DNA of 23,267 bases, from positions 1 through 23,267 of the IMG/VR virus record IMGVR_UViG_3300017971_007926; one strand, 5' to 3'. The position numbers and the translations under genes were made by a program. This stretch comes from a virus. A model generated the notes under the pieces. The model made no database searches, was not told the origin of the DNA, and saw only the letters and a list, made by a program, of their open reading frames with translations. Below are positions 3,822-23,267 of this stretch, one piece after another (within the stretch, counting starts at the first letter, position 1; every line of letters begins with the position of its first letter).

Positions 3822-3822
3822 C

Positions 3823-6674: not shown

Positions 6675-6725
6675 GCCTTTCCTCCTACTTAGGATATCGG
6701 GCCCTTCGGAGCTCTTTTTTGCCCT

Positions 6726-7966: not shown

Positions 7967-7980
7967 TTTTTCCTCCAACT

Positions 7981-9915: not shown

Positions 9916-9921
9916 TCAGCC

Positions 9922-10323
9922 TTAAACCACAGGAGCATGACGCGGAAATCCCCGAACCACGATGGCGCCGAAAATGCCGCCGGTCGAGGGAGATCCGGAA
10001 ACGGTTTTGAGATCGACCCGAACATAGCGCTTGCTGCCTCGATATCCGACCGCCTTGAGCTTATCGTCATCATCCACTCCAAAGCTGGGATTTGATCCAT
10101 GCAGGGCCGAGGCTTCGGCCCCATCGCTCAGGCCGGAATCGTCGCCTTCGGTGATCTTGAAAACATAGGCCGTGCCGTCGGTGATGGTGCCGCTCATCAC
10201 GAAAACCATAGCGCCTTCATACCCTAGCAGGTCGACGATAACATCGCCGTTTCCCGCTGCGGTCTTTGCGCCATATTTCATGGAGATGACACCATCCTGA
10301 TTGTGATAAAGATCTCGGTTCAT
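9922..10323 (-). CDS. Capsid-associated protein, possible decoration protein
   Basis: A 133-residue protein directly downstream of the major capsid gene with SD AAGGAG. It is acidic, Gly-rich and beta-rich, with 'VDLLGYEGAMVFVMSGTI' and 'KRYVRVDLKTVSG' strands and no membrane segment or signal. Small soluble beta proteins in this slot are frequently head decoration or stabilising proteins, but I see no family-defining motif and the role is a guess from position. Confidence 0.6.
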   Translation of the reverse strand: MNRDLYHNQDGVISMKYGAKTAAGNGDVIVDLLGYEGAMVFVMSGTITDGTAYVFKITEGDDSGLSDGAEASALHGSNPSFGVDDDDKLKAVGYRGSKRYVRVDLKTVSGSPSTGGIFGAIVVRGFPRHAPVV

Positions 10324-10353
10324 TGTGTTTTCTCCTTTTAATTTTACAGGCCG

Positions 10354-11583
10354 TTAGGCGGCCACCTTCTGCTTCTGCAGGGCCTCAGCCAGAACCACCA
10401 TGCCGTCGACGCGCTTGGTCACTTTAAAGACCACCACATCGGTTGCGGCCTTGAGCTCAACCAGCCTCTCGACGGTCAAGCCGCGGCGATCCACGATCTG
10501 ATAGGCTCGGCGGATATCCCCGAAGATGATCGGATAGGCGTCGGCCGCCACAGCGGGCACGTCTGGGCATTCGATGATTCGGCGACCCAAAAGGGTCTCA
10601 GGTTGCCCTTCACGGTAGGACGCTTGCCAGAGATAGTTACCTTGACCATCTTTCAGGAGCCGGATCACCCGGACCGTATCACGCCGCATCAGGAAAAGGG
10701 CGTTGCGGGCATAGCCGGTCTTGATGGCATAGGCCAGATTGATAAGGCCGTCACCCTTAAGCGTTGCGGCGTCGCCGCTTTTGGTTTCGCCGACATCCGT
10801 ATTGACCAACATGCCCTCGGGCTGCAGCTTGGTATTGCCGGAAATGAAGGCCGTCCCCTCGGCTACATCGAACTGCTCCTGCGCCTCCTGGATGATCTCC
10901 TGCTCCAAATTGAAATCCGAATCCTCCAGATCTTCCTTGGAAACTTCAACCCAGGCATAGAGCTTGTGGGGGGTCGAGGTTTCAGCACCGTATTTCAGGC
11001 CAGCCGTTTCGGTCAGGGTCTGCAGCTCATTCGCCCAGGCAGCCGCGAAGGTTGCGGTCCGCTTCCGGACGATGGTTGATCGCTTCCCGATAGTCTTGAT
11101 CCTGGCCAGCTGCCGGACAGGTGACATTTCGGTAATACCCTTGATGATCTCATTCTCGATGTTCGGAGAAGCGAGATATCCCCCAAGGGTATCATCCGAG
11201 ATGAGCATCGCCTTGCGCTCGATCAGGATCTGGCGATCCTCGGAGGTGATCCCATCGTTGCCCTTGCGGGCCCAGTTCAAGAAGGCCTGGCGGTATTCTG
11301 CGGCATCCTTTTCCCGGCCTGCGTCAGCTCCGCTTATTCCCGGCTGGCCGAGCCGGGTCTCCAGCTCGTCGATCCGGGTATTCACAGCTTTGATCTCGTT
11401 ACCCTGCCGTTCGATCTCGGCCTTCCGCTTATCGATTTCATCCAGGCGGGTTTCGAGTTTTTCCTGGGCTGCCTTGAATTCAGCCTCGGTGATCTTGCCT
11501 TCCTGGGATTTTTCATGTTTCTCGCGGAGTTCCTTGATCGCCTTGTTATGCTCTTCAATGAGCCTCTTGAGTTCTTCGTTCAA
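10354..11583 (-). CDS. Major capsid protein, HK97 fold
   Basis: A 409-residue protein. Residues 1-85 form a Glu/Lys-rich coiled coil, the scaffold-like delta domain that is normally cleaved off by the prohead protease, followed by a linker and then the shell domain from about residue 128 ('LISDDTLGGYLASPN'). Typical HK97-group landmarks follow: 'ISEMSPVRQLA'-type text, 'WVEVSKEDLEDS', 'GTAFISGN' and a C-terminal 'VFKVTKRVDGMVV' strand. The start is TTG at 11583, five bases after AGGAGG; no ATG or GTG gives a sensible alternative. A weak start codon for the most abundant virion protein is notable. The protease gene lies upstream as expected. Confidence 0.92.
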   Translation of the reverse strand: MNEELKRLIEEHNKAIKELREKHEKSQEGKITEAEFKAAQEKLETRLDEIDKRKAEIERQGNEIKAVNTRIDELETRLGQPGISGADAGREKDAAEYRQAFLNWARKGNDGITSEDRQILIERKAMLISDDTLGGYLASPNIENEIIKGITEMSPVRQLARIKTIGKRSTIVRKRTATFAAAWANELQTLTETAGLKYGAETSTPHKLYAWVEVSKEDLEDSDFNLEQEIIQEAQEQFDVAEGTAFISGNTKLQPEGMLVNTDVGETKSGDAATLKGDGLINLAYAIKTGYARNALFLMRRDTVRVIRLLKDGQGNYLWQASYREGQPETLLGRRIIECPDVPAVAADAYPIIFGDIRRAYQIVDRRGLTVERLVELKAATDVVVFKVTKRVDGMVVLAEALQKQKVAA

Positions 11584-11584
11584 T

Positions 11585-11917
11585 CTATCCTCCTACGATA
11601 GAATTCAGAGCCTTAAGCTCTTTTAGGGAATCTGACAATAAGTGGATAATTTCCGGCTCATCGTCTATATGGTCCAAATGAGTGCCGTCGTCGATCGGGC
11701 CGATATCGCCGATCTTTAGGGGCGGCTCATAAGAATCGATAAATATCTGTAATTTCTCAATCGAGGCTTTAGCCAGAAGATAACTCTCCTCGGAAAGCCC
11801 GCCGGCCGCCTCAATCGTTGTGATCTTGGATAGCACGCCTTCGAGCGACTTTTCTGCCGGCTCAAAGCGCTCATATTTAACGCCGTTATCCTCCAGCCAT
11901 TCCTTGGCCTCGGCCAC
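11585..11917 (-). CDS. Unknown protein between protease and capsid genes
   Basis: A 110-residue acidic protein starting with GTG at 11917, three bases after the protease stop, and ending one base before the capsid start codon. It is largely helical: a central helix 'SEESYLLAKASIEKLQIFID' and a C-terminal 'EIIHLLSDSLKELKALNSIV'. No motif recognised. The position between protease and capsid could suit a scaffold helper, but nothing in the sequence demonstrates that. Confidence 0.55.
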   Translation of the reverse strand: MAEAKEWLEDNGVKYERFEPAEKSLEGVLSKITTIEAAGGLSEESYLLAKASIEKLQIFIDSYEPPLKIGDIGPIDDGTHLDHIDDEPEIIHLLSDSLKELKALNSIVGG

Positions 11918-11920
11918 GGT

Positions 11921-12592
11921 CTAATCCTTGACCGGGAACCGGAGGGCCTGGGGGATCGGATTGTCTTTCGGTCCGCTGTGCGCCTTCAGCTTGGCCCAGA
12001 TCACGGCTATGGTACTCGGGACCTTGATCTTGCCGTAGATCGTACCATCATTCTTACGACGGAAAGAATCAGGATCGAAGTCGCCGGGATCCCGCAGCCG
12101 GGCCGCGTGCTCGTTCGGATAGGGCTTGAATTCCATTTTTACGCTATCGATTTCAGCCCCCGGGCAGGCCTGGAAATTGAGCGTGATCGGCGAGATCTCA
12201 AAAACCCTACATTCTTTAAGCCTCCGGAGCTCTTTATCCCATGCGTCTTGTAGGGTTTTGAATCCGATTGAAATGCCCTTAATCGCACCCTGGGCCATGA
12301 GACTGCGCTTCTCCCGGGCTGATTGCACGTCCAGATTCAGATGGCCCTCGACCCTGAGGCCGGCCTTGGCATCTTTGGCATAGACCACGCCTAGCGGCTC
12401 CATCGGATTATGGAACCAGCACATCGGAAATTTACCCTTGTTCTCCTCCAAGGTCTTGTCAAAGGCGCCGGGCATGACGACTTCGTTAAAGCTATCAACG
12501 ACGCCATAGACCGAAGCTAGGCCGGTGAAGATGCCTTTTTCCTCATCCATGTCATTTAGTTTGAATTTAAAATCCTTGGTTTCTAGGATCAT
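11921..12592 (-). CDS. Prohead protease, HK97 family (U35)
   Basis: A 223-residue serine protease that cleaves the capsid delta domain during head maturation. I start it at ATG 12592, seven bases after AGGAG and two bases after the portal stop; a further upstream ATG would overlap the portal by more than 40 bases. Family signatures are visible: the catalytic His in 'CWFHNP' (residue 61), the catalytic Ser in 'KGISIGF' (residue 108), and the acidic 'VFEISPITLNF' strand (Glu 132). Sits between portal and capsid genes as in HK97. Confidence 0.9.
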   Translation of the reverse strand: MILETKDFKFKLNDMDEEKGIFTGLASVYGVVDSFNEVVMPGAFDKTLEENKGKFPMCWFHNPMEPLGVVYAKDAKAGLRVEGHLNLDVQSAREKRSLMAQGAIKGISIGFKTLQDAWDKELRRLKECRVFEISPITLNFQACPGAEIDSVKMEFKPYPNEHAARLRDPGDFDPDSFRRKNDGTIYGKIKVPSTIAVIWAKLKAHSGPKDNPIPQALRFPVKD

Positions 12593-12594
12593 TT

Positions 12595-14703
12595 TTATGC
12601 TCCTGCACCTATGCTCACATGAGGGAAGGTCGAGCACAGGCAGTTGATGACATTTCCCGCACTGCCCCGGTAATCTCCCGGATACATCAGCTCTTCACCG
12701 CCTACGACAAAAGGCTGGTCAAGTGACAGCGGATTATTACTATATTGGGCATCAGCATCCATGTGGGTCTGGCGCGTATCATCTGTGAAGGCTGAAAGCC
12801 AGCCGCGGGCGTTCACGAATTCGCTCTGCTCGTAGCCTTGATGCTGACCCCAATTTTCCACCTTGGCCGTCTCGGTCCGGGCGATCCGCCGGGCGCGGTG
12901 ATTTATGAACGAGCGGAGTTTTATTCCGATCTCCTGGGTAAACTCCTCTACGGTCCAAGAGTCGGCGATTGCGATTTTTAGCATGTCCTCGATCAGGCTC
13001 ATGGTAAATTCATTGATCTTGGTCCCGGAATGGGTAATTATTTTGTGGAGCAATTTTTCAAGCTCAGGGGTGAGAGAAAAAATACCCCCCAAAATATCAT
13101 CATCCTTTTGTTCCAGCGTATAAAGCTGCCCTTTGGACGTTACCATCCCGGCATTGCCGGCACTCTGGGCAGCGTCCGTATACCAGGGGAGCATTTTCTT
13201 GAGATAGCGGTCGCTCTCGGCCTCTTTATCATGCAGTCCCTCGGCCAGGCTGCCCTGTAGGGTCTTGAGCTTGCCGGCAGCACTCACGATCTTTTTGACC
13301 TGGCCCTCTAGAAAGTCCTCGGCTAATGGTACGACCGGCTTTTCCTTGGCCTCGATCCGCAGCACAAAGGAATCCCAGAGCAGCCGTTTCCGCTCCGGGG
13401 CCGCCCAGAATGATTTTGTGTCTGCCTTTATTTCCCGCTGGTAGATAAGGGGGACAGATTTTATGGATCTAGATGCCGTCGCATCCGATCCGATTGGAAC
13501 TAGGTTTATCGGCTTATAGATCACATCGCCAGCCGGGCCAATATTGTCATAGCCGAGGATTTCTCGTTTTTCATTGTCTGTTATGCAATCAACCTTTGAT
13601 ACGTACTCGAAGACGGTCTTCCGGTCTTCTTTTAGGGCATCGATCTTATCTAGATTTAGCCGGAGCTCCAGGCGCTCGCCGTACCGCGGCGTAAGCCATA
13701 TATTGAAATCATCCCGGAAGATATACATGAGCGGCAATACGGCCTCAATGTAGAGGGCCTTCCTGGCCTCGGGATAATTGCTGTATTTCTTCTCAGTGAA
13801 TCCGATAAGCTCCGGAGCCACATTGAAGATCGAGCAGACCTTCTGAGCCGTAGTCTTATCCGCATTTAGCCAGTCCATATCATGGGGAGACATGGATAGT
13901 TGCTCCCACGTAACCTCCCCCTCTGTAATGATCGGCTTTCCGGCATTCTTATAGCCGGCATAAGATTCCAAAATAGCTTTTTCAAATAGCTCTTTATCCT
14001 CCTTAGATTCAAAACCAGCCTTCGCATTAATAGCCATCGGCGGCTTGCAATCGTTCTGCAGGAGTCGCATATTCCATTCAAGTGACATATTGAGGATATC
14101 GACTCCCTTGCTTGCCACAGAGATCGGGGAAAGCCCATAAACCTCATCGTTCGGATGAAAGAGTTTTGTATGCAGGACCTCATCCGGTCCATAAACATCA
14201 GGCTTGCCGGCCCCATAGCTATATTCGTAGCCGCCGACAGGGGCGAGCTTATTCCCTGGAAGAACCTTCGTACGATCTGGGAAAAGTAACCCCAAGGCCA
14301 TGATTTTTCCCTTGTTCTCCCCGGTCAGCGGGCCGGATCCCTTGATATAATTATTACCGGCTAGGAGTAAAAATCCGGAAGCCGATTCGATCAGCTTTCG
14401 CTTACTCATTCGCTTCTGATCATTCGGATGATGGAGGCGCCAGAGTAACGGATGAGATTCGTCCATTTCCTCGATCTTGCCTCCGCGAGATCTCGGAAGT
14501 TGGACCAGTTTCCATTCAATCCCAGCCGCCGTCGTAGCTATCAGGCGAACGCATGAATAAACAGTCATGCAGTTTTCATATCCGGCCTTGGATAATTTCG
14601 AGTAGTCTTTCGAAGTCCAGACCGCCTGCGGGAGTCCGGCCTGGATGACACCTGACCAGGTACGGCTAGCCTTCCGTTCAAATATTCGCTTGAAAATATT
14701 CAT
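12595..14703 (-). CDS. Portal protein fused to Mu gpF-like head morphogenesis domain
   Basis: A 702-residue protein whose start overlaps the terminase stop as TAATG. Residues 1-400 match HK97-type portals, which form the DNA entry ring: 'CVRLIATTAAGIEW' near the N-terminus, 'YGLSPISVAS', then 'WLNADKTTAQKVCSIFNVAPELIGF' as the clip/stem theme and 'YSNYPEARKALY'. From about residue 520 onward a second module appears, with 'ARTETAKVENWGQHQGYEQS' at 608, 'WLSAFTDDTRQTHMDADAQ' at 636, 'MYPGDYRGSAG' and a closing C-x-C at 688/690. That is the conserved core of the Mu gpF/SPP1 gp7 family of minor head proteins. Many phages encode these two functions as adjacent separate genes; here they are one chain. 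Confidence 0.87.
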   Translation of the reverse strand: MNIFKRIFERKASRTWSGVIQAGLPQAVWTSKDYSKLSKAGYENCMTVYSCVRLIATTAAGIEWKLVQLPRSRGGKIEEMDESHPLLWRLHHPNDQKRMSKRKLIESASGFLLLAGNNYIKGSGPLTGENKGKIMALGLLFPDRTKVLPGNKLAPVGGYEYSYGAGKPDVYGPDEVLHTKLFHPNDEVYGLSPISVASKGVDILNMSLEWNMRLLQNDCKPPMAINAKAGFESKEDKELFEKAILESYAGYKNAGKPIITEGEVTWEQLSMSPHDMDWLNADKTTAQKVCSIFNVAPELIGFTEKKYSNYPEARKALYIEAVLPLMYIFRDDFNIWLTPRYGERLELRLNLDKIDALKEDRKTVFEYVSKVDCITDNEKREILGYDNIGPAGDVIYKPINLVPIGSDATASRSIKSVPLIYQREIKADTKSFWAAPERKRLLWDSFVLRIEAKEKPVVPLAEDFLEGQVKKIVSAAGKLKTLQGSLAEGLHDKEAESDRYLKKMLPWYTDAAQSAGNAGMVTSKGQLYTLEQKDDDILGGIFSLTPELEKLLHKIITHSGTKINEFTMSLIEDMLKIAIADSWTVEEFTQEIGIKLRSFINHRARRIARTETAKVENWGQHQGYEQSEFVNARGWLSAFTDDTRQTHMDADAQYSNNPLSLDQPFVVGGEELMYPGDYRGSAGNVINCLCSTFPHVSIGAGA

Positions 14704-16130
14704 TATTCTCTGTTCCCTGGAATCCAGGCTCTGGGCGGAACGCTGACTACCGGCTGAGCAAGCGCATAAATAACGCCTTCTGCAAAATCCGGAGATCTCC
14801 CCAATCTTTCTTTGATCTTTTCCTTCGGCTCGATCACGATCTGGCCGGCCGAATTCTGGCTGTATTTGATAGCCATGAGTTGAGTCACCAGCTCCCGGTC
14901 ATCGGGAATATCCAGGTCCTCCAGCAGCTCTTGCAGTCCCCAATGGATCTCTGCTCTTTGGTTTTTGAAGTGTATTGGATCCCGAGCCTTGCCTGCTCCG
15001 TGGATCTCAATTATCTTGATCTTCAGCTTATATCCGGACTTTTTAAGCTCTTCTCGTCGCGCCTGAGGGGCGAGCTGCAAAACCAAATCCGTGTAAAATT
15101 GCTGTTTTTCTGTTTTCTGCTCTTTCAGCCTATCAACAACGCCTCCTCCCACTCCGTCAGCGTCGACCTTGATTGTTATAAGGTCTAAGGTATCCTTCCA
15201 TTTAGGGATGATCCGGTCCTGGCAGCAGCGCCAGATCTCACCTGTGGTCCTCATAGTGTCATGGCCCTGAGCCTTGTTGAAAAGCGAGATCTTCAAACCC
15301 TCCCTTAAAATGATGACAGTCTCATCGTCTCCAGATCTTGCAACGTCTGTGCCGATCTCTACCGGAAGCCCTGGATCCAACTTTCGCAACTTAGCCGCCT
15401 GGACTGCAAGATAGTTGTAAACATCATCCGGTTCGCCCACCGCTTCCCAATCCCCCTCAAGCAGGGCTTTGATATAGACTGGGGTAAGAATGCTTTTCAT
15501 GTTGTCGATATAATTTGCCGGCAAATTTGCCAGGTTGTCCGTCGGCAGCGATGGGATGAAAATATGATCATCCAAATTCCGCTCTATGAATCGCTCCTTA
15601 ATCCAGCCGATATTCGGGTTGCAGGAAAGAAGAAAATAGTATCGAATCTCCGAAAGATTGAGCCGCAGCCGCGTGGCCAGCATCATGAACTCTTTCTCTG
15701 TGAACTGTTCGGCCTGGTCTAAGGCGATCCAGCCGTACTCTCCGGACATGAATTTTTCCCAATCATCCGGCTTATCGCCTGTGCCGCCATATCGAAGCCG
15801 GGATCCGTTGATAAATTGAATGATCTTTTCGCTCTGGTTCCAATTCGAGACCAGGCGCATATCCAGGAACTTCTCGAGCTGCGGCAGCACGGTATCTCGA
15901 AAAGACGGCCAGGTCTTCCGCATCAGCAATCCGAAATTGCCCGGATAATCGAGATTGAGCTGGATTCCTTCATTGATGAGCGCTGCGGTTTTCCCGCCGC
16001 CCATGGCTCCGCCGAACAGTTTGTAAGTTTCGGGAGCTTTATGGAATTGGATCTGTTTCTTATTGCGGCGGGGATCATAGATCCGGCTGAGATCCACGAT
16101 GTTTTCACTGCTTTGGCTCAGCTGCTGCAT
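14703..16130 (-). CDS. Terminase large subunit
   Basis: A 475-residue packaging motor with ATPase and nuclease domains. The Walker A motif GGAMGGGKTA is at residues 40-49, Walker B 'WIALDQAE' at 134-141 and the coupling motif 'LLSCNPN' at 167-173. The RNase H-like nuclease domain shows acidic residues in 'GTDVARSGDDE' (Asp 262), 'KVDADGVGGG' (Asp 323/325) and 'RSPDFAEG' (Asp 448). ATG 16130 lies in the end of the small-subunit gene (26 bp overlap) with AAGGA upstream. It acts at the portal vertex to cut and pump DNA. Confidence 0.94.
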   Translation of the reverse strand: MQQLSQSSENIVDLSRIYDPRRNKKQIQFHKAPETYKLFGGAMGGGKTAALINEGIQLNLDYPGNFGLLMRKTWPSFRDTVLPQLEKFLDMRLVSNWNQSEKIIQFINGSRLRYGGTGDKPDDWEKFMSGEYGWIALDQAEQFTEKEFMMLATRLRLNLSEIRYYFLLSCNPNIGWIKERFIERNLDDHIFIPSLPTDNLANLPANYIDNMKSILTPVYIKALLEGDWEAVGEPDDVYNYLAVQAAKLRKLDPGLPVEIGTDVARSGDDETVIILREGLKISLFNKAQGHDTMRTTGEIWRCCQDRIIPKWKDTLDLITIKVDADGVGGGVVDRLKEQKTEKQQFYTDLVLQLAPQARREELKKSGYKLKIKIIEIHGAGKARDPIHFKNQRAEIHWGLQELLEDLDIPDDRELVTQLMAIKYSQNSAGQIVIEPKEKIKERLGRSPDFAEGVIYALAQPVVSVPPRAWIPGNRE

Positions 16131-16581
16131 CTTTCTTGTTTTCCTTGTTTTTAGATCTCGGCACCGCCGAAATGACTGTGATGCTCATGTCTCCTGATAC
16201 ATCCAGATCCTGCTTATCCCTCCATTCTTCGGGATTGCGATTAGTGAGTATGAATTTCTGGGCTGCAACGGATGGCAGGACCATCTTCCGGACTTTTTTG
16301 ATTGGAATATGTGCTATTTTTGTGTGATCCTTGTTAGCTATTGCTTTATATTCAGTCTCCGTATATCGAAATCCCTTGGCGGTTTTATAGAGCGTGTTTT
16401 CAACCTTCCTATCGGGGATGGCCATAGCCCGGTCGACCGTGTCAGAAAAGTCAGGTTTTGTTTTTTTCCATTGATGAAAAGTTTCTCGTGATATCCCCGC
16501 GGCAGCACATGCAGATTTGATCGAAGAACCCTGTTTTAGATGTTTACAGAGTCTTTCGGTAAGCTCCTTGCTGTACTTCAT
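16105..16581 (-). CDS. Terminase small subunit
   Basis: A 158-residue DNA-recognition subunit of the packaging motor. Start ATG 16581 overlaps the preceding stop as ATGA; an upstream in-frame ATG at 16629 would run deeper into that gene. Residues about 8-40 form a helix-turn-helix ('SIKSACAAAGISRETFHQWKK'-type text), followed by 'DFSDTVDRAMAI', a helical segment and 'QKFILTNRNPEEWRDKQ', which is typical of phage small terminases. The C-terminus is charged. Immediately upstream of the large subunit. Confidence 0.85.
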   Translation of the reverse strand: MKYSKELTERLCKHLKQGSSIKSACAAAGISRETFHQWKKTKPDFSDTVDRAMAIPDRKVENTLYKTAKGFRYTETEYKAIANKDHTKIAHIPIKKVRKMVLPSVAAQKFILTNRNPEEWRDKQDLDVSGDMSITVISAVPRSKNKENKKDAAAEPKQ

Positions 16582-16910
16582 TCTGTCTTTTCCAGCCGAT
16601 CCAGCCGGCGCTTCACATCTTTTAAACACTGCTCAAGTCCGGAGATCTTCTCGCCCTGCTTATCCAGCTTGTCATCGATTTTCCCCAGCCATTCTTTATT
16701 ACCCTTGCAGATCGGTGATTCTCCGGGTGCATGGGGATTGCATTTATTGAGAATGGGCTCGCCCTGCTGGACAGCCTTCTCAAGCGCACGGACTAATTCT
16801 TTGATATCTAAGCCTTTTTTCTTGGCTTTGTTGTCCAAACACGCCTTGATAATGAGCCCAAGAGTAGCGAACCCATTACAGATCAAAGCGACGATAACGG
16901 CCTCTGACAT
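16578..16910 (-). CDS. Membrane-anchored coiled-coil protein, possible lysis protein
   Basis: A 110-residue protein starting at ATG 16910 (TGATG overlap, AGGAGG four to five bases upstream). One hydrophobic helix at residues 3-22 is followed by a Lys-rich stretch, a loop with two Cys ('NKCNPHAPGESPICKGN') and a C-terminal heptad-like helix ('LDKQGEKISGLEQCLKDV'). The positive charges after the helix suggest the bulk stays inside the cell, which argues against a classical inner-membrane spanin and leaves a holin or anti-holin role possible. It follows the lipoprotein gene and the M15 endolysin, so a lysis function is likely but unproven. Confidence 0.6.
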   Translation of the reverse strand: MSEAVIVALICNGFATLGLIIKACLDNKAKKKGLDIKELVRALEKAVQQGEPILNKCNPHAPGESPICKGNKEWLGKIDDKLDKQGEKISGLEQCLKDVKRRLDRLEKTE

Positions 16911-17197
16911 CAATCCTCCTGACGGCGGAGATTCAAGATCTCTTCTTTGAGCTCCTGGACCCACATGAGAAAGGCTTCATTGACAACAAAGTTTCCGTCC
17001 TCGGTCGTCCGGAGCGGATTTTTGCGGACTTCCGGGCCTGGATTTAAAACATCATAGCTGGGATAAAGCGCCGGGTTATAGGCCGTACAGCTAGAGATCG
17101 TCAAATAGCTGCTTGCGATAATCAGCCAGATAAGAATCGTCGCGATTCTTGACGGCTTTACGCAATGCTGTAAGCGCCTTTTTTCTTTTCTTTGCAT
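16910..17197 (-). CDS. Small lipoprotein, spanin-like position
   Basis: A 95-residue predicted lipoprotein. ATG 17197 is chosen because AAGGAG is four bases upstream and because it leaves a proper signal: basic n-region ('MQRKEKRRLQH'), hydrophobic core ('IATILIWLIIASSYL') and a lipobox ending in ISSC at Cys 37. The mature part begins 'CTAYNPALYPSYDVLNPGPE' and ends with an amphipathic 'EAFLMWVQELKEEILNL' helix. Its first 107 bases overlap the previous gene in another frame. Close to the endolysin, so an outer-membrane spanin component is a reasonable hypothesis. Confidence 0.72.
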   Translation of the reverse strand: MQRKEKRRLQHCVKPSRIATILIWLIIASSYLTISSCTAYNPALYPSYDVLNPGPEVRKNPLRTTEDGNFVVNEAFLMWVQELKEEILNLRRQED

Positions 17198-17291
17198 TTT
17201 TCTCCTTGCGGATGGCTTTCTCGGCCATATCGATATAGCGGATCCCGAGCTTGGCAATCGCCAGAATTTCATCCAAAGATTTAAGATTCAC
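17091..17291 (-). CDS. Small basic helical protein, unknown
   Basis: A 66-residue protein starting with GTG at 17291, right after the endolysin stop, with GGGGGA upstream. It is a continuous amphipathic helix rich in Lys/Arg in the middle ('AIRKEKNAKKRKKALTALRK') and acidic at the end. No membrane helix or signal. The last 107 bases are shared with the lipoprotein gene in a different frame. Helical regularity and tight spacing argue that it is translated, but function is unknown. Confidence 0.55.
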   Translation of the reverse strand: MNLKSLDEILAIAKLGIRYIDMAEKAIRKEKNAKKRKKALTALRKAVKNRDDSYLADYRKQLFDDL

Positions 17292-17292
17292 A

Positions 17293-17682
17293 TTATTCCC
17301 CCAGCTCGAAGTGATAGATATCGAAATCGCCAGGATCTACTTTATCGTCAGCATTCCAATCTCCCCCCCAGCGGAGCTTTAGTATCTTTGCGATTTTGCC
17401 CAGGATCTCGTACTCCGACCCGCGCTGCCAGATGAGTTTTCCATCTTTATAGATGCAGAAGTCGATGGCTTCCCAGATCTGATGCTTCGAGATCTTCGTC
17501 ACGCCGTCACAATTTGTTACCGGCTTGCGATCGAGCTCCTTGGTGCGGCCGATGGCATAGAGCTCCTTCTGCTCATCCCGGGTTCTGTGAAAGCATGTGG
17601 GCAGCAATTGGATCCTGCGAAGGCGGGCAAAAAAGACGAGTAAGGCGATCTTGTAAAAGAATATAACTCTACGTAGGGTCAT
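17293..17682 (-). CDS. Endolysin, M15-family peptidase
   Basis: A 129-residue peptidase of the M15 group (T5 endolysin / D-Ala-D-Ala carboxypeptidase-like), expected to cut peptidoglycan cross-link peptides. 'CFHRTRDEQKELYAIGRT' at 30-47 is the family's N-terminal signature. Zinc ligands are His 67 and Asp 74 in 'SKHQIWEAID' and His 124 in 'DIYHFEL', with Asp 121 in the catalytic D-x-x-H position, and 'RWGGDWN' at 104-110 is conserved. The Gly normally found three residues after the first His is Trp 70 here. No signal peptide, so it needs a holin. ATG 17682 has no good SD and lies just below the repeat-bearing gap. Confidence 0.85.
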   Translation of the reverse strand: MTLRRVIFFYKIALLVFFARLRRIQLLPTCFHRTRDEQKELYAIGRTKELDRKPVTNCDGVTKISKHQIWEAIDFCIYKDGKLIWQRGSEYEILGKIAKILKLRWGGDWNADDKVDPGDFDIYHFELGE

Positions 17683-17718
17683 TACATGGAATAATATAAG
17701 GGGTGGTTTTTAGCAGTT

Positions 17719-17752
17719 TCAGGTTAAGCGATGATTTTGGTCAGGTTAAGCG
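17719..17752. repeat. Two 12-bp direct repeats, 22 bp apart
   Basis: TCAGGTTAAGCG occurs exactly at 17719-17730 and again at 17741-17752, start to start 22 bp, about two turns of the DNA helix. Such phasing is typical for binding of two copies of a protein on the same DNA face. No other copy was noticed in the window. Confidence 0.8.
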
Positions 17753-17765
17753 TACCCTGGGTACG
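17751..17765. repeat. 15-bp perfect palindrome
   Basis: CGTACCC T GGGTACG: seven-base arms around one central base, sharing its first two bases with the second direct repeat. The one-base centre and the lack of a U-run on either side make an operator-like DNA site more likely than a terminator. Confidence 0.7.
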
Positions 17766-17784
17766 GCTGAAGTGAATAAATTAG

Positions 17785-18093
17785 CTATTGACATTTATTT
17801 TTCTGTATGGCAGAAAATCCGCGAATACCATGTTTTTTACACCAGATTTCAACGCTACATTCGCTTGATAGCTCATATTCTTCTTTCAAGTCTTTTAGAA
17901 TGGCTGTATCTTCCTCGGTTATTTCATCAAGTGTTATTCGAATTAATTTAGTGTCTTTGGCACCCAAGGCAACGAGATGAAAATCGCCCCCATGGGATAT
18001 GATGATTTTATATTTAAAGGGAGGAGAACTTAGATATTTAACGGCACTCTCCACTGCCCTTTTTTTCCGTTGCTTGATTATTGTTTTTGACAT
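17785..18093 (-). CDS. Unknown protein resembling the N-terminal half of the next gene
   Basis: A 102-residue protein overlapping the GIY-YIG gene by 16 bases. I do not recognise a named family. 'SHGGDFHLVALG' followed by 'KLIRITLDEI' recalls the beta-strand core of PD-(D/E)XK nuclease-like folds, but no complete active site is visible. Residues 36-95 align by eye with residues 31-95 of the upstream GIY-YIG protein, sharing F-x-(L/M)-(V/I)-A, I-x-(L/V)-x-EI and EIW positions. The local DNA is AT-richer than its neighbours and contains no GATC. Confidence 0.6.
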   Translation of the reverse strand: MSKTIIKQRKKRAVESAVKYLSSPPFKYKIIISHGGDFHLVALGAKDTKLIRITLDEITEEDTAILKDLKEEYELSSECSVEIWCKKHGIRGFSAIQKNKCQ

Positions 18094-18740
18094 TGGCTTT
18101 CAATATATCTCTTTAGTTCACCTCGATATTGAAACCACTCTCCCTCTATTCGATATTTTGCAAATCTTTTGTGGAGGCTCAATTCGAGTTGATAGGGAAC
18201 CTTACTTTTTATTGCCCCCAAGAAATTTAAATCAGGGCCAAGGGTCTGATAAATTTTTAGGCGTTCAGGTAAATTAGTCGTTTTCCCGATTTTAACAATA
18301 TTGCTATGAGGAGAATAGATGAAATAGACACATCCAGTTTTGCGATCAATGCGGCCGCGAGAAACCGCCGCCATCTGATCAGATTTTCCGCGCGGAATTA
18401 ATTTGGCAGAGAATATTTCCCCGTCTCGACCGCACCAGTTCTTTCCATCATAAACATATGAAGTGAATTGTTTGCATCGTTCATCCGCCAGCCAAATTTC
18501 TTTTGTTGCTTCGCCATACTCAAATTTAATTGCTGGCCATTTTTCTAGCTTCGCCATTTGCCATTTCACTAGATCTTTATCAATTTCAGAAACAATTACG
18601 ATGATAAAGCGAATATCTAATCTCTGTGCCGCAATCATACAAAAAGACATTTCATCAATATCATATGCAACCATTTTCAATAGTTTTTTTGCATTTTCTT
18701 TGGCTCGTAGAAGCCGTTTTTCAGTAAATGATTTATTCAT
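18078..18740 (-). CDS. GIY-YIG (T5orf172-type) nuclease-like protein
   Basis: A 220-residue protein with two parts. Residues 135-205 form a GIY-YIG-related domain of the T5orf172/Mug113 kind: 'CVYFIYSP' at 137, 'VKIGKTTNLPERL' at 149-161 with the key Arg 160, Glu 187 and His 190 in 'ELSLHKRF', and 'EGEWF' at 199. Such domains may cut DNA or only bind it. Residues 1-130 are a separate domain that resembles the next, 102-residue protein. ATG 18740 lacks a good ribosome binding site. AT-richer DNA suggests a recent arrival in the phage. Confidence 0.8.
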   Translation of the reverse strand: MNKSFTEKRLLRAKENAKKLLKMVAYDIDEMSFCMIAAQRLDIRFIIVIVSEIDKDLVKWQMAKLEKWPAIKFEYGEATKEIWLADERCKQFTSYVYDGKNWCGRDGEIFSAKLIPRGKSDQMAAVSRGRIDRKTGCVYFIYSPHSNIVKIGKTTNLPERLKIYQTLGPDLNFLGAIKSKVPYQLELSLHKRFAKYRIEGEWFQYRGELKRYIESQCQKQ

Positions 18741-18794
18741 ATCAATACCGTAGCTTGTTTTTCTTCTTTGATCCAGATCTCAGATCCTCTTCGC

Positions 18795-19175
18795 TCAAAC
18801 ATCTCTCACCACGATCTCGGTTCTCGGATTATCCCGGTCGATCTCTTGATAATATTCGGCGTCGAGATATTCCGGGCTATCCTTCCAGATGATCCCCATC
18901 TCCTCCAGGGCATCCCGCAGCATCTTGAAGCCCTGGATCAGGTTATCATCGTCTAGGAGGCGCTTTCGAAAGGATCGAAATTCCACTCGCCGCTTCTTTT
19001 GAAAAGTGCATTTAAATTCTATCCGATCTAGCTCGTTGATCTTCAGCTCCCACAGAAAGCCTTCTTTCTCACTTTTTATACGCTTCCAATTCCGGCTCCG
19101 GTCCCATTGCCGGGTTTGATTGCCGGAGGGAGTGACAAGGGGAAGAGTGAAGCGGAAAGATCTAAACTTGACCAA
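18795..19175 (-). CDS. RusA-like Holliday junction resolvase
   Basis: A 126-residue RusA-family endonuclease that would cut four-way DNA junctions during recombination or before packaging. The active-site region 'LLDDDNLIQGFKMLRDALEE' (residues 73-92) has the clustered Asp 75-77, conserved Asn 78, Lys 84 and Asp 88, followed by 'GIIWKDSPEYL', matching the family's D-x-DN...K...D...G-I-x-D-D pattern. The start is TTG at 19175, six bases after AGGA and overlapping the upstream gene by 14 bases. Length matches the family. Confidence 0.85.
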   Translation of the reverse strand: MVKFRSFRFTLPLVTPSGNQTRQWDRSRNWKRIKSEKEGFLWELKINELDRIEFKCTFQKKRRVEFRSFRKRLLDDDNLIQGFKMLRDALEEMGIIWKDSPEYLDAEYYQEIDRDNPRTEIVVRDV

Positions 19176-19383
19176 TTGTTTTCCTAGTTTCTGCTACGAT
19201 GTCTCGAGCCTCTTCTACTTCTGTAAGACGTTCTGACAATGTGTTGATTTCAGCTTTCAGCTTCTTGATCTTTTTATGCCGCGCTTCGATATCGGCATTG
19301 ATCATCGTGACATCGGTCTCCAGGACATTAAAAACCTTGTCTTCTGGGCCGTAAAGATTCGGTTGTGCTCCTTTTTTTGCCAT
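19162..19383 (-). CDS. Small coiled-coil protein, unknown
   Basis: A 73-residue protein with ATG 19383 and AAGGAG six bases upstream. After a short 'NLYGPEDKVFNVLETDV' opening it is one long heptad-like helix ('KKLKAEINTLSERLTEVEEARD'-like, about residues 30-65). It overlaps the resolvase start by 14 bases, suggesting coupled translation. No family recognised; a DNA-associated or partner role with the resolvase is possible but only from position. Confidence 0.6.
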   Translation of the reverse strand: MAKKGAQPNLYGPEDKVFNVLETDVTMINADIEARHKKIKKLKAEINTLSERLTEVEEARDIVAETRKTIGQV

Positions 19384-19410
19384 ATTAAGCTCCTTTTCCC
19401 CTATCCCTCC

Positions 19411-19424
19411 CGCCCCGAAGGGCG
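19411..19424 (-). other. UUCG-type RNA hairpin between genes
   Basis: On the coding strand CGCCC-TTCG-GGGCG gives a five-pair GC-rich stem closed by a C(UUCG)G tetraloop, one of the most stable small RNA hairpins. It sits in the 52-bp gap after the holin-like gene. No U-run follows, so a terminator is unlikely; it may set mRNA stability or expression ratio. Confidence 0.6.
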
Positions 19425-19435
19425 TCCGGTTTAGA

Positions 19436-19699
19436 TCAGGCGGGCCGCAATTTGGTCGGCACCTTCAATAGTTGATAGCCCATATTCGATCCCGCGAAAA
19501 CCTGAACTGCGATGGTCAGGAATTCCACGACATTGAACGCCTTGCCCTGCTTCAAAAAATCGAAGCCGACAACGCCGAGCGTCACAACCGCCGTCAGCAC
19601 CACGGCAATCCAGCCTTTGATCTGCAGGCCGGACAGCACCTTGACCTTTATGAATTCGGTCACGGCTGCTACCAAGGCGATCATTTCAACTATAGTCAT
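19436..19699 (-). CDS. Holin-like small membrane protein
   Basis: An 87-residue protein with an ideal ribosome binding site (AAAGGAGG). Three hydrophobic segments are seen: about 3-18, 27-47 ('IKGWIAVVLTAVVTLGVVGF') and 57-76 ('VEFLTIAVQVFAGSNMGYQL'), with a short basic C-terminus ('KVPTKLRPA'). Size, three helices and the nearness of a hydrolase-like gene and lipoproteins fit a phage holin that opens the inner membrane for endolysin. It could be another small membrane protein; the call is structural, not by motif. Confidence 0.65.
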   Translation of the reverse strand: MTIVEMIALVAAVTEFIKVKVLSGLQIKGWIAVVLTAVVTLGVVGFDFLKQGKAFNVVEFLTIAVQVFAGSNMGYQLLKVPTKLRPA

Positions 19700-19711
19700 G
19701 TTGGCCTCCTT

Positions 19712-19903
19712 TCAGTCTTCGTCTTCATCGCTAAATATGTGATGGCCCCACAATTCGCGGGGCGTGCGATCTTCTGGTCGGTCGCCATCTTTCACAATGA
19801 TCGAGGCGGGATTTTGTTTTTTCTCTTTTTCCTCATCATTTTGGGGATAACAACTTTTCAGAAGTTCTAATTCTTTCCAGGGTTCGTATTTTTTAATCGT
19901 CAT
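19712..19903 (-). CDS. Small acidic protein, unknown
   Basis: A 63-residue protein starting at ATG 19903 (AGGA six bases upstream) and overlapping the preceding lipoprotein gene by 11 bases. It is highly charged, with 'NDEEKEKKQ', a 'RPEDRTPRELWGHHIF' stretch and an acidic SDEDED end. No signal, membrane helix or motif. Function unknown. Confidence 0.55.
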   Translation of the reverse strand: MTIKKYEPWKELELLKSCYPQNDEEKEKKQNPASIIVKDGDRPEDRTPRELWGHHIFSDEDED

Positions 19904-20042
19904 CTGAAATCCTATGTATGCCCATGCTCACGGTCCGCCGCGGCTTTTCATCCAGATAGCCGTCGGGATCGCAGATCGTCGGCTGCTTCTTGCAGCCAAA
20001 TATCACCATGAGAACAATTCCCAGAATAAGCCTTTTAATCAT
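19893..20042 (-). CDS. Tiny lipoprotein-like protein A
   Basis: A 49-residue product read from ATG 20042 to TAA 19893. It has a classic lipoprotein signal: 'MIKRLILGIVLMVIFGC', with the lipobox Cys at residue 17. The mature peptide is only 33 residues and ends 'PRRTVSMGIHRISDDD'. The motif RRTVSM-x-I is shared with the gene just upstream. GGGGAAAG precedes the start. Located between the hydrolase-like gene and the holin-like gene; a lysis or envelope role is plausible but not shown. Confidence 0.65.
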   Translation of the reverse strand: MIKRLILGIVLMVIFGCKKQPTICDPDGYLDEKPRRTVSMGIHRISDDD

Positions 20043-20088
20043 TTTGGCTTTCCCCGATTATTTCCATGCTTACTGTCCGCCGCGCCTT
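19922..20088. repeat. Imperfect 25-bp direct repeat in the paired lipoprotein genes
   Basis: Copy one at 19922-19946 and copy two at 20064-20088 match at 22 of 25 positions. They encode the RRTVSM ends of the two small proteins in the same frame. The coordinates span both copies; only the ends match. Confidence 0.75.
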
Positions 20089-20214
20089 CCATTCTGCCGT
20101 CCGCTTGCTTATCCGCTCCGCGCAGCTTGAAACGAATAGCATCAGGCACCAAACGAAGACAATGCAGAGCATGACGGCGATCAGACATTTGCTCCATCTA
20201 TCAAGCATTTGCAT
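20035..20214 (-). CDS. Tiny membrane/lipoprotein-like protein B
   Basis: A 59-residue product from ATG 20214, seven bases after a perfect AAAGGAGG, overlapping protein A's start by 8 bases. A long hydrophobic segment at 10-30 ends with FVSSC, which could be a lipobox (Cys 31) or part of a plain membrane anchor. The end, 'EWKARRTVSMEIIGESQND', shares RRTVSM-x-I with protein A, and the coding DNA shows a 22/25 match there, so the two genes seem to be duplicates. Confidence 0.68.
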   Translation of the reverse strand: MQMLDRWSKCLIAVMLCIVFVWCLMLFVSSCAERISKRTAEWKARRTVSMEIIGESQND

Positions 20215-20227
20215 CGAATAGCCTCCT

Positions 20228-21535
20228 TTAAACTCTCGCTTTATTGAGATATGCCAGGCGTTCGAGCGTAGAGTCGAAATCATTCCACTCGATATAGGCG
20301 TTGTGAGGATCGTCAGGCGTCCGCCGCCACGGAGCCATGGGAAGATCCTCGATGATATCTTTAGGCCAGAGACCCCATATTGCCTCTCCCAGGTGTTGCA
20401 GCTCGGGGCCGGTGGTATCGCGCCAGGCTTTACCATCGGGCTTGTTTTCATGAAGCACGTATTTGGTCCCGGATCCATGGACAGATCCATCGGAGCTCCA
20501 GCGGCGATAGGCCCAGCGCCACATCGTACCGGTGGCCCATCCGTACCACGTACGCGAGTGTCCAGGCTCTACGGGATTATCGAGGTTTTCGGCAATGCCG
20601 AAGCCATGGATTGCGATAGCGTGGTGGTGATCATTCCGGGCATACTTATCGTTTCCTACCCATATTCCGTCAGGATCCTGATGGCGCTCGACGAGTTCCG
20701 CCGGCACATAGTCAGAATGGGATGAATCAAGCAGGACCTTCTCAAGCTCGAGGCCGGTTGCGCCGAACCACTGCTCATGAGCTTTGGCCAGGATCCTGCC
20801 GAAATCGTGATCCCCATGGTGTCCGATTTCATTCGAAAGGCTTACCTCGATGTCCTTTTCGGTATAGAATCTTCGTAGGATCGCCATGAGCCGATAGATA
20901 TGGTCCTGTTGATATGGGAGAATAGCCGGATTGAATAGATCGCTGTATGGCCAGCTCCTTGATTTCTGAGCGATATCAGAGTCATCGTACATGTATTCAC
21001 AATAGTCACCTGGGAAATAATTCGGGATGAGGAGAAACTTTGCTTCAGCTCCGGCCTGGATGAAGCCTGTAACAAGATCATAGTATTCCTCGTTTGGCTC
21101 ACGCATCCTCCATATCCCGCTGACTCGCTTGAATGGGGTGATCTTTTGGTATTGTTTATAGATCTCAGCCGTGCTTCTCGGTTCGAGATCTACAGTGAAA
21201 AATACCGCTCGATCAGTCCCGGTTTTAATCCGGATATTTTGAAGCAAAATTACTAGATCTACATAGCTTAATCGGCCGATAGCGAAATCCATGAACAAGG
21301 AATAAAGCGCCAGCTGTGACCGATAGACTTTTTTCAGATCTAGCGGATCCGGTTTAAAATTAGGGTTATCTGGATCATTGACTTCCTTCATGATGAGATC
21401 CCACATTCTGCCGGCTTCCTTGCCGGTCTCGCCGGCGATCATCTGTTCTCGAGTCCGTCCCGCTTCTCTCTCAATGACATACTTGTAACTGGCATCAATA
21501 AATTTGCCCTTAAATCTTTCTTTCAAATCATTCAT
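20228..21535 (-). CDS. TIM-barrel-like putative glycoside hydrolase
   Basis: A 435-residue protein, ATG 21535 with AAGGA seven bases upstream, that I cannot place in a named family. Residues 108-420 show a regular series of strand-ends as in a beta/alpha barrel: 'AVFFTVDLEP' (110), 'AKFLLIPNYF' (165), 'IEVSLSNEIGHHGDHD' (229), 'EKVLLDSSHSD' (265), 'HHAIAIHGFG' (304) and 'TKYVLHENKP' (357). An Asn-Glu pair at 235/236 after the fourth strand and Glu 363 near a later strand imitate the acid/base and nucleophile of clan GH-A. Helices fill the N-terminal 100 residues. No signal peptide. Position before lipoproteins and a holin-like gene would fit a cell-wall hydrolase. Fold and role are inferences. 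Confidence 0.6.
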   Translation of the reverse strand: MNDLKERFKGKFIDASYKYVIEREAGRTREQMIAGETGKEAGRMWDLIMKEVNDPDNPNFKPDPLDLKKVYRSQLALYSLFMDFAIGRLSYVDLVILLQNIRIKTGTDRAVFFTVDLEPRSTAEIYKQYQKITPFKRVSGIWRMREPNEEYYDLVTGFIQAGAEAKFLLIPNYFPGDYCEYMYDDSDIAQKSRSWPYSDLFNPAILPYQQDHIYRLMAILRRFYTEKDIEVSLSNEIGHHGDHDFGRILAKAHEQWFGATGLELEKVLLDSSHSDYVPAELVERHQDPDGIWVGNDKYARNDHHHAIAIHGFGIAENLDNPVEPGHSRTWYGWATGTMWRWAYRRWSSDGSVHGSGTKYVLHENKPDGKAWRDTTGPELQHLGEAIWGLWPKDIIEDLPMAPWRRTPDDPHNAYIEWNDFDSTLERLAYLNKARV

Positions 21536-21686
21536 GGTCTTTTCCTTCTGTTTCTTGTAAAAGGCGATTGATTTCTTCCCGAAAGGATTTCACCTCAGAG
21601 ATCATGTCGTCATCGCCGTCGTGGTAGTCTATGAGATCATCACAGAATTGCTCTAAGGTTTGCCTGAGCCCGATATATTTAGCCAT
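21528..21686 (-). CDS. Small acidic protein, unknown
   Basis: A 52-residue product from ATG 21686 to TGA 21528, too short for routine calling but tightly packed: 8-bp overlaps with the genes on both sides and a GGAAGAGAG binding site. It is a predicted helical hairpin with a central acidic 'DYHDGDDDMIS' turn. No family recognised. Confidence 0.58.
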   Translation of the reverse strand: MAKYIGLRQTLEQFCDDLIDYHDGDDDMISEVKSFREEINRLLQETEGKDHE

Positions 21687-21954
21687 TTGTACTCTCTTCC
21701 TTTATGGGATATGGAAATCGGAGATGGACCGAATAACTATCTCCAAACCGGGTTAATAAAACATTTTCAGAAGCCAGCCGGATATGAGCATGAGACACTT
21801 TTCCGTGTCCGCAACAGCTTGCTAGGGTTTCAATGCCATAGTCGTTAAGGATCTGGATAAGTGAGGCTATGCAAGAATCCACCTTGATCACGGTCCGTCC
21901 GCTCGGGCCCGGACGCCTTACCCTGATCTCAATATCAGCTCCCCATTTGCACAT
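21679..21954 (-). CDS. Conserved phage protein with CCGHG motif
   Basis: A 91-residue protein. ATG 21954 is chosen because it overlaps the prior stop as TGATG and matches the usual 'MC-WG' opening; a GTG three bases earlier is also possible. Landmarks 'KVDSCIASLIQILNDYGIETLASCCGHGK' (theme at residues 25-52) and the opening 'MCKWGADIEIRV' are those of a small family I know from actinobacteriophages and other phages, annotated as unknown. Cys and His residues in CCGHG may bind a metal. Biochemical role unknown. Confidence 0.75.
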   Translation of the reverse strand: MCKWGADIEIRVRRPGPSGRTVIKVDSCIASLIQILNDYGIETLASCCGHGKVSHAHIRLASENVLLTRFGDSYSVHLRFPYPIKEESTNG

Positions 21955-22124
21955 CACCCCTCCGTCACTACAGGTCCGCAGGCTTCCACGCTAGAATTCC
22001 CTCCGCCTGTATCCCGATCTACCAAGTGATATGTCATGCCATCCTCATGGTCGTACCAGATATCAAAGTTTTGCTCTTCGCTATTTTCGCCACATTTATG
22101 GCATATATATTTAGGCTCCTTCAT
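21954..22124 (-). CDS. Small zinc-ribbon-like protein
   Basis: A 56-residue product from ATG 22124 (ATGA overlap with the HTH gene) to TGA 21954. 'YICHKCGENS' at residues 6-15 gives one CxxC pair; a lone Cys lies at 49, so a complete four-ligand site is not evident. The rest is acidic and loop-like. Possibly a metal-binding adapter; function unknown. Confidence 0.6.
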   Translation of the reverse strand: MKEPKYICHKCGENSEEQNFDIWYDHEDGMTYHLVDRDTGGGNSSVEACGPVVTEG

Positions 22125-22480
22125 CCTCCAGCTCCACCTTCAGCCTCCTCTTTCGCCTTTCTAGATATCTTTTCTCCATTCCTGATTAAATATTCTAAGA
22201 TTGCAATCCTGACCATCCGTAATAACGCTATATTTTTTCGCTCACAATATCGCCGCACGGCGCTATAAAGCATATCTCCGAGCTGATCTTTAAGATTGAA
22301 TTTTGATGGCCCAACTATAAAAGACGCTCTATTGCGCCGAAGATAAATCCCTGTCCGTTTTTGTGCATGATAGATCGAACTTCTGTAGAGATTATATTTT
22401 TTCGCCATTTCTAATACTGTGAGCCCTTGCTTCTTCGCTTCTTCCAGCAAGGTATCGCTGATAACTATTCTTCTTGTCAT
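22121..22480 (-). CDS. Helix-turn-helix DNA-binding protein
   Basis: A 119-residue basic protein. Residues 12-46 read as a helix-turn-helix: 'LEEAKKQGLTVLEMAKKYN' then 'LYRSSIYHAQKRTGI', the second helix being the likely DNA reader. A second helical block (62-100, 'LKDQLGDMLYSAVRRYCERK') could mediate dimerisation. ATG 22480 has a weak ribosome binding site. It may regulate the operon or act in DNA metabolism; targets are unknown. Confidence 0.68.
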   Translation of the reverse strand: MTRRIVISDTLLEEAKKQGLTVLEMAKKYNLYRSSIYHAQKRTGIYLRRNRASFIVGPSKFNLKDQLGDMLYSAVRRYCERKNIALLRMVRIAILEYLIRNGEKISRKAKEEAEGGAGG

Positions 22481-22483
22481 CGC

Positions 22484-22759
22484 TTATTTATTTTGCGGCC
22501 GCGATGGATCCCTTTTGTTTTCCTCTTTGGGCTCGCGGTTCTGCTTGAGGGTATTTTCTTTGAAGGTCTCAAGAGTCTTGACTTTCTTCCGCAGCCAATG
22601 AATGAGCCAGACAAAAAAAGCGGCGCCAGCGACATAGCCTACATCGTAGGCGGAATCGCCGGACCCTGTTTTTGTGTGCTCAATTAAGGTCGTGACGGCA
22701 CCGAAAAGGCCTATCCAAAGAAACACCAGCCAAATAGTGATTACATGGGATGGTTTCAT
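22484..22759 (-). CDS. Two-helix membrane protein, unknown
   Basis: A 91-residue protein with AAGGAGG four bases before ATG 22759. Hydrophobic helices at about 6-26 ('VITIWLVFLWIGLFGAVTTL') and 40-57 ('VGYVAGAAFFVWLIHWL'), then a basic, hydrophilic tail rich in Lys, Glu and Arg to the end. By charge, both termini lie in the cytoplasm. Could be a superinfection or envelope protein or an anti-holin; no family recognised. Confidence 0.65.
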   Translation of the reverse strand: MKPSHVITIWLVFLWIGLFGAVTTLIEHTKTGSGDSAYDVGYVAGAAFFVWLIHWLRKKVKTLETFKENTLKQNREPKEENKRDPSRPQNK

Positions 22760-22781
22760 TTTTCCTCCTTATCCTCGGCCC

Positions 22782-22988
22782 TTATCTCCATGTCCGCTCT
22801 ACCTTCTCAATAATCCAGGCATCAAAGCCGCGATCTGAGAATGTTCCGCCAGGGCCGCCTAATTTTCGCCTGGCTGCCAAGACGGCCGCATCCTCATTTT
22901 GGGCATAAACATCAACATAGCCGTCATATCGCTCCCAAAATCCTGGTTTTGACCGCATCCAAACTCGGTAGCTTTTTGCTTCATCCAT
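22782..22988 (-). CDS. Small unknown protein
   Basis: A 68-residue protein with GAGGAG seven bases before ATG 22988 and an 8-bp overlap with the gene upstream. 'SYRVWMRSKPG' and 'YDGYVDVYAQNEDAAVLAARRKL' suggest a beta-beta-alpha fold of the kind seen in many tiny phage proteins, followed by 'GFDAWIIEKVER'. Function unknown. Confidence 0.62.
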   Translation of the reverse strand: MDEAKSYRVWMRSKPGFWERYDGYVDVYAQNEDAAVLAARRKLGGPGGTFSDRGFDAWIIEKVERTWR

Positions 22989-23112
22989 CGGCTTGCTCCT
23001 CGGCCTCCATCCTCAGCCAGTCCTCCGGGGCCAGATCGGCCAGGAGAGGATAGCCGCTTTCCTCATTCATCCGGAGCAGATCCTCTGGGCAGGGATCATA
23101 TTGGTAGATCAT
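22981..23112 (-). CDS. Tiny acidic protein, unknown
   Basis: A 43-residue product from ATG 23112 to TGA 22981 with a strong GAGGAGG ribosome binding site and overlaps with both neighbours. It contains a duplicated look, 'CPEDLLRMNEES' and 'APEDWLRMEAEE', two 12-residue repeats with P-E-D-x-L-R-M. Possibly an interaction peptide; function unknown. Confidence 0.6.
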   Translation of the reverse strand: MIYQYDPCPEDLLRMNEESGYPLLADLAPEDWLRMEAEEQADG

Positions 23113-23267
23113 TTTCCTCCTCTTTCGGCTTGACCTGATTCGGCCACAGGCTGACCAGCTGTGGGGTTTGGCATTCCGGATCCGGGCAGCGCACTTTTAC
23201 CGGCGACTCCTCGGCCGGGATCCTGACCGAGATCGTCCGGAGGCAGCGCTTGCAGAGGACGTAGATG
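23096..23267 (-). CDS. Zinc-ribbon protein, 5' end outside the window
   Basis: The last 56 codons of a gene that enters from the window's right edge and stops at 23096, overlapping the next start by 17 bases. 'LCKRCLRTISV' and 'VRCPDPECQTPQL' give two Cys pairs spaced like a zinc ribbon (CxxC and CxxxxC). The N-terminus is missing, so domain content upstream is unknown. Only this frame has the Cys pattern; a second open frame across the same bases lacks any motif. Confidence 0.6.
   Translation of the reverse strand, partial: IYVLCKRCLRTISVRIPAEESPVKVRCPDPECQTPQLVSLWPNQVKPKEEENDLPI

Follow-up and report, generated by a model that had tools for sequence, protein, structure and literature searches.

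The window, a virus record of 23,267 bases, carries minus-strand genes around the locus in the order coiled-coil protein (19162-19383), RusA-like resolvase (18795..19175; PHROG 34, E 1e-6), GIY-YIG protein (18078..18740), p102 (17785..18093) and M15-type endolysin (17293..17682; PHROG 465 endolysin, E 1.5e-18), followed at some distance by the small and the large terminase. The GIY-YIG gene encodes 220 amino acids, with an N-terminal domain homologous to p102 (residues 1-98, 18447..18740) and a C-terminal MUG113/T5orf172 nuclease domain (residues 135-206, 18123..18338), whereas p102 is a standalone protein of 102 amino acids. The last 16 bases of the GIY-YIG gene overlap the start of p102, and this start codon is backed by the family, as its members begin at the same methionine. 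Both genes run together with the late genes and in the same direction, and the moron architecture expected in the preliminary description was not seen here. Directly downstream of p102, the sequence TCAGGTTAAGCG is present twice (17741..17752 and 17719..17730, 22 bases apart), adjoined by the perfect dyad CGTACCCTGGGTACG with one central base (17751..17765). A conserved sequence, AAAAACCACCCCTTATATTA (17692..17711, minus strand), is predicted as a promoter-like block ahead of the endolysin gene.

A domain common to p102 and the N-terminus of the GIY-YIG protein had been suggested from an alignment by eye. Pairwise BLASTP alone misses this match (13.9 bits, E 1.2, not significant, alignment starting at residue 1), but profile comparison of the sequences confirmed that both proteins carry one homologous domain. 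Using the large terminase we fetched 14 close relatives (TerL 65-85% identical), and three of them (L017, L019 and L023) contain standalone p102 homologues of 95 amino acids. With a profile of four relatives, the first of 7799 ORFs to score behind the members themselves was that of the GIY N-terminus (E 2.2e-4; next ORF 0.4). An 11-member profile without any window protein gave E 2.3e-4, a 12-member profile E 7e-6 and the 13-member profile recovered the GIY-YIG protein over residues 1-92 (E 6.8e-7 in 9176 ORFs); in a shuffle control the real N-terminus outscored 5000 of 5000 shuffled sequences. The family comprises 13 members after three further scans, all of them standalone and 91-107 amino acids long, with one ending at a contig end. 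The similarity spans about 92 residues instead of the roughly 60 aligned originally, but the F-x-x-x-A, EI and EIW marks noticed at that time are included. A duplication in place was not demonstrated: the identity of the GIY N-terminus is 24% with p102 but reaches 34% with other members of the family, and sisterhood of the two is neither supported nor rejected in the tree of the domain (p-AU 0.16), in which the GIY N-terminus and L023 are located on very long branches. Profile searches assigned the domain to no Pfam, PHROG or NCBIfam family, and a match to Phage_HCP1 (E 0.037) was under the cut-off and was dropped. A search for p102 relatives in phage and plasmid collections and in genome contigs found none, and the standalone relatives come only from phage-like records. 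Judged by its sequence, the p102-type domain is a new, undescribed family.

Structure prediction had been recommended as a check, and the models of p102 and of the GIY N-domain both match the archaeal resolvase Hjc (1gef) best. The AlphaFold2 model of p102, built on a 12-row family alignment (pLDDT 84, pTM 0.76), has the order alpha-beta-beta-beta-alpha-beta-beta (H3-21, E29-32, E40-43, E48-55, H60-72, E79-86, E95-100), which is the order of the PD-(D/E)XK core. Top Foldseek matches of this model were nearly all archaeal Hjc (1gef with E 4.7e-4, prob 1.0), and the second aligner VIA gave a Z of 9.7 to 1gef over 89 residues at 2.9 A. The model of the GIY N-domain (residues 1-100, pLDDT about 70-87) shows the same order and a Z of 9.9 to 1gef, but it is not independent evidence because it shared alignment rows of the p102 family. 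The GIY-domain part of the AlphaFold2 model had a pLDDT under 50 and was left out of use.

The family profile also finds an Hjc nuclease in one related record (L075:2776-3381, E 0.0018 in 9176 ORFs; Pfam PF01870, E 2.8e-8), with FDLVA...LIQIK of the nuclease aligned on FHLEA...KIRIV of the family. A PF01870 match was found only for this protein and not for p102 and six relatives, an hhalign run of the family against four Hjc sequences, profile to profile, gave no signal and a search of PDB sequences by means of the profile returned nothing. The L075 nuclease instead provides a sequence bridge to Hjc, although a weak one. The domain resembles archaeal Hjc in predicted fold, strand order and spacing of the first and second catalytic columns, which is 13 in 1gef (D33-E46), p102 (H39-R52) and L075, whereas the catalytic residues differ. 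In the family, D is replaced by H, N or C, E by R (once C) and K by V or T (once E). The positions of D, E and K are occupied by H39, R52 and T54 in p102, which does not contain the catalytic D ... E-x-K of Hjc and PD-(D/E)XK, and the GIY N-domain has C34, I47 and I49 in these columns. As modeled, the domain has the fold of a resolvase but not its canonical active site. An acidic site may have migrated in other family members (E at D+2, Asp after IRIV), but p102 has V41. The L075 nuclease combines an N-terminal part rich in CxxC-like pairs with the C-terminal Pfam-Hjc nuclease domain, and the same record also holds a standalone gene for the dead-Hjc-like domain.

A nuclease-like domain fused to one of the two copies had been assumed, and this was borne out, as the GIY part exceeds the curated Pfam cut-offs for PF13455 (40.7 bits, cut-off 22.3) and PF10544 (35.1 bits, cut-off 20). 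Y13, K24-I25-G26, R34, E60, H64 and E75 (domain numbering) are kept, and Y, KIG, R and E are invariant in an alignment of the GIY domain with proteins of L002, CL131 and Vibrio phages. As all these family-typical residues are retained in the sequence, the GIY-YIG domain is likely active as a nuclease. A search for a Zn-finger binding domain with the Pfam profiles, among which CapR is not represented, gave no match for residues 1-130 beyond the GIY part; residues 1-98 match the p102 family instead. Aphanizomenon phage CL131 and the Vibrio phages 1.265.O and 1.016.O were considered as sources of whole-protein relatives and rejected, because the clearly common part is the GIY domain only and the N-terminal parts look unrelated by eye. 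PADLOC reported a weak match to PDC-S57 (E 1.7e-4) within the GIY domain only.

The two genes differ in their distribution. The MUG113 domain is present in one of 17 virus records, namely the window, and absent from all 16 others, which are partial records, whereas standalone p102 homologues occur in 12 other phage records. With this spread, p102 does not qualify as a moron peculiar to this phage. In seven of the 12 records (L017, L019, L058, L066, L067, L069 and L075) the domain gene is located directly upstream of the endolysin gene, as in the window. In L023, with a TerL 85% identical to that of the window, the domain gene follows the endolysin gene and its product is 20% identical to p102. 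Record L070 shows the order coiled-coil gene, RusA-like gene, gene for a small membrane protein and domain gene without a GIY gene, and a RusA-like neighbor was recognized only there and in the window. An HNH-like gene, read by eye, is found in L059 near the spot of the GIY-YIG gene of the window, and in L058 (3098-3904) and L075 (4221-4799) the place of the GIY gene is taken by an Xre-type HTH gene that shares 19 bases with the beginning of the domain gene, compared with 16 in the window. What lies upstream of the domain gene hence varies between the phages. Because the GIY-YIG gene is absent from the 16 related records and L070 shows the gene order without it, it looks acquired by this phage. 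Such a polymorphism of presence and absence at one locus, which is a trait of homing endonucleases, was found for the GIY-YIG gene in the comparison with the 16 other, partial records. In L023, a protein of 340 amino acids, trypsin-like by eye, is encoded between the coiled-coil gene and the endolysin gene (1817-2839), a position occupied in the window by RusA, the GIY gene and p102.

The pair is AT-richer than its surroundings, as described before: its GC content is 0.374 compared with 0.507 for the window, it forms the lowest-GC 956-bp stretch of the window and its GC3 of 0.31-0.32 is the lowest, with 0.375-0.73 in all other genes of the window. Family members elsewhere range in GC3 from 0.27 to 0.86 and move with their genomes. 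The low GC3 of both genes fits a recent joint arrival, perhaps with replacement of an older domain gene. The reported depletion of GATC is correct as a count, with three sites in 956 bp being below 99% of windows, but it follows composition because a dinucleotide model expects just 4.7, and we rejected it as a sign of foreign origin. The stretch 15001-15400 used for comparison was a high spot with 20 GATC per kb, whereas 11.5 per kb are found outside the cassette. Outside the cassette (1-17784 and 18741-23267) GATC is about 1.5 times as frequent as expected from dinucleotides (257 seen, 166.5 expected), and a similar excess is present in the relatives L023, L024 and L070. The idea of a moron cassette is retained in part: the GIY-YIG gene is absent from relatives and the composition differs, but p102 is widespread.

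A detailed look at the noncoding region after the domain gene revealed a common layout in most relatives, consisting of TTGTCAA...CTAAT.CCCCC, two to three tandem repeats (period 21-28) or dyads and AAAAA...GGGcTTATATT; in the window this block extends over 17692-17765. The promoter-like part was aligned in 10 phages and has a near-invariant A-run and TTAtatT. The repeat sequences vary by phage while the layout is constant. Tandem repeats with a period of 21-28 are located ahead of promoter-like blocks in L058 (4202-4273, CCCCAAAGGGGTTGACCATTTCGG), L069 (197-268), L065 (4290-4350, CCTTAGGTTCACTTTTTGGTGA), L066 (991-1041, ACCTTCTCGCCAAAATGGGAC), L023 (3968-4005, ACTAAAACCCCCAAATT) and L070 (7606-7658), and L075 has two dyads CCGTCC...GGACGG. 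Apart from the repeat after p102, the 23 kb of the window contain no tandem repeat with a period of 18-28 and a score of at least 11. Repeats with a score of at least 12 were found in six of 13 regions downstream of the domain gene, compared with one of the 272 remaining noncoding windows in these records (Fisher p 1.7e-8, a value to be read as a guide only, as the threshold was set after seeing the data and the kinship of L058 with L069 and of L059 with L070 is ignored). The one exception among the 272 windows is the repeat of L070, which lies ahead of the lysis genes of this phage. In L023 and L065 the repeats follow the domain gene although the next gene is not the endolysin gene. In L017 and L019, domain gene and promoter block are both present but tandem repeats are lacking (L019 has one dyad), in L059 and L070 the repeats are 0.8-2 kb away from the domain gene, and L018 keeps the promoter-like block without repeats, with no domain gene seen in the fetched stretch.

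The location of a dead nuclease fold next to repeats, tandem and often dyad, which reach into the upstream part of a promoter-like block is suggestive of a regulator that binds DNA. We assume, with a probability of about one half for the explanation as a whole, that the domain is a dead-Hjc DNA-binding module, p102 a regulator and the GIY fusion a nuclease aimed by the same fold. As predicted from the models, an Hjc-type PD-(D/E)XK fold would have lost its catalytic residues and would serve as DNA-binding part. The most likely role of p102 would be dimeric binding to the tandem repeats or dyads commonly located behind its gene; these overlap the region upstream of a lysis- or late-gene promoter, which p102 would regulate. 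The GIY-YIG protein, with a diverged copy of the domain and the MUG113/T5orf172 nuclease, would be a chimeric nuclease aimed at such repeat sites in other phages or satellites, either as a free-standing homing-type endonuclease or as an Odn-like weapon against competitors. DNA binding by the domain, the repeats as its site, the regulation as well as the cutting and its target are what we infer, and we found no report in the literature on DNA binding or cutting by the p102 family. Several points count against this explanation: the genome of the window has the repeats beside the gene, and therefore the nuclease would have to spare them, the repeats are missing as tandem copies in L017 and L019 and far from the gene in L059 and L070, and in L058 and L075 the Xre-type HTH protein encoded by the overlapping gene could be the actual binder. 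In its most far-reaching form, which we put forward only tentatively, a dead resolvase fold would have become a sequence-specific regulator with phage-variable operators and the GIY fusion would cut the operators of competitors, with an origin independent of CapR and Odn.

It is conceivable, if rather doubtful, that an ordinary free-standing GIY-YIG homing endonuclease inserted beside a resident gene, with its N-domain recognizing a target near p102 or RusA and with the repeats being unrelated. The occurrence of the gene in one of 17 records, the foreign composition of the pair and the HNH-like gene, identified by eye, near the same spot in L059 are in line with this, as is the frequent location of T5orf172 genes near terminase and other essential genes (PMC10448857). 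However, random insertion leaves unexplained why the recognition domain is homologous to the adjoining gene, and the Zn-finger domains usual for T5orf172 homing nucleases were not detected with Pfam. Similarly, the tandem repeats might be a packaging (pac/cos) site or an Xre-repressor site unconnected to the domain protein, since the region lies upstream of the terminase in several phages and, in L058 and L075, the gene ahead of the domain gene encodes an Xre HTH protein. We regard this as possible but unlikely, because the repeats follow the domain gene despite a different terminase and gene order (in L065 between TerL and portal; L067) and no HTH gene adjoins in L023 and L065.

Hjc cuts four-way junctions as a dimer. 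As it is also the best fold match, p102 and the GIY N-domain might be dimerization or junction-binding domains, with p102 holding or restraining the GIY nuclease at branched DNA in recombination or packaging and RusA as the neighboring resolvase. The gene overlap, which suggests co-expression of p102 and the GIY protein, and the RusA-like genes upstream in the window and in L070 would agree with such a role. Nevertheless, we consider it improbable, as the domain protein occurs without any GIY protein in every other relative, the catalytic Hjc residues are lost and a RusA-like neighbor was recognized in these two records only. Least credible is a true moron, in which the pair would form one accessory defense or anti-defense cassette that arose by duplication in place; it would account for the low GC3 of both genes and for the weak PDC-S57 match of the GIY domain, but p102 is widespread without the GIY gene and the GIY N-terminus shows no greater similarity to p102 than to the rest of the family.

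Our preferred reading of a regulator and a nuclease aimed by the same fold has its closest parallel in phage ICP1 and its satellites, where binding domains are common to T5orf172 nucleases and CapR, a regulator that stands alone (PMC10448857). In the same survey, a Zn-finger binding domain (CapR, DUF723, DUF4397) was found in 87% of the T5orf172 homing nucleases, and their genes are located in the vicinity of the terminase gene and further essential ones (PMC10448857). In both cases a GIY-YIG-class nuclease has a binding domain that also stands alone, and the gene is located near the terminase and only in some relatives. In contrast, the putative binding domain here is a predicted nuclease-dead Hjc-like fold instead of a Zn finger, and the standalone protein is encoded in the phages themselves, adjoining the fusion. 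In Odn of ICP1, a nuclease of this kind is fused to a RepA-type domain, and the origin repeats of a satellite are cut (PMC8263062). Odn is a chimera comparable in size (its gene has less than 700 bp) with a T5orf172-type domain and a binding domain that also occurs standalone, and repeats are the target, as proposed here, but Odn uses RepA_N and not the fold described here.

GIY-YIG homing endonucleases of the I-TevI type are modular, with a nuclease module and a separate DNA-binding module. The protein of the window has the same modular build, whereas its putative binding module is N-terminal, its nuclease C-terminal and no intron was seen. A nuclease fold probably turned into a DNA-binding module, and the theme of CapR and Odn, a nuclease sharing its aiming domain with a standalone protein, would be met, with a different domain, in an unrelated set of uncultivated phages. 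In many relatives, the repeats next to the domain gene provide a ready candidate binding site, and their variation between phages offers a direct way to ask how sites and proteins change together. Directly after the endolysin gene, the window contains two overlapping ORFs in different frames (17091-17291 and 16910-17272), which resemble a spanin-type lipoprotein pair and recur in the relatives L012, L058 and L069.
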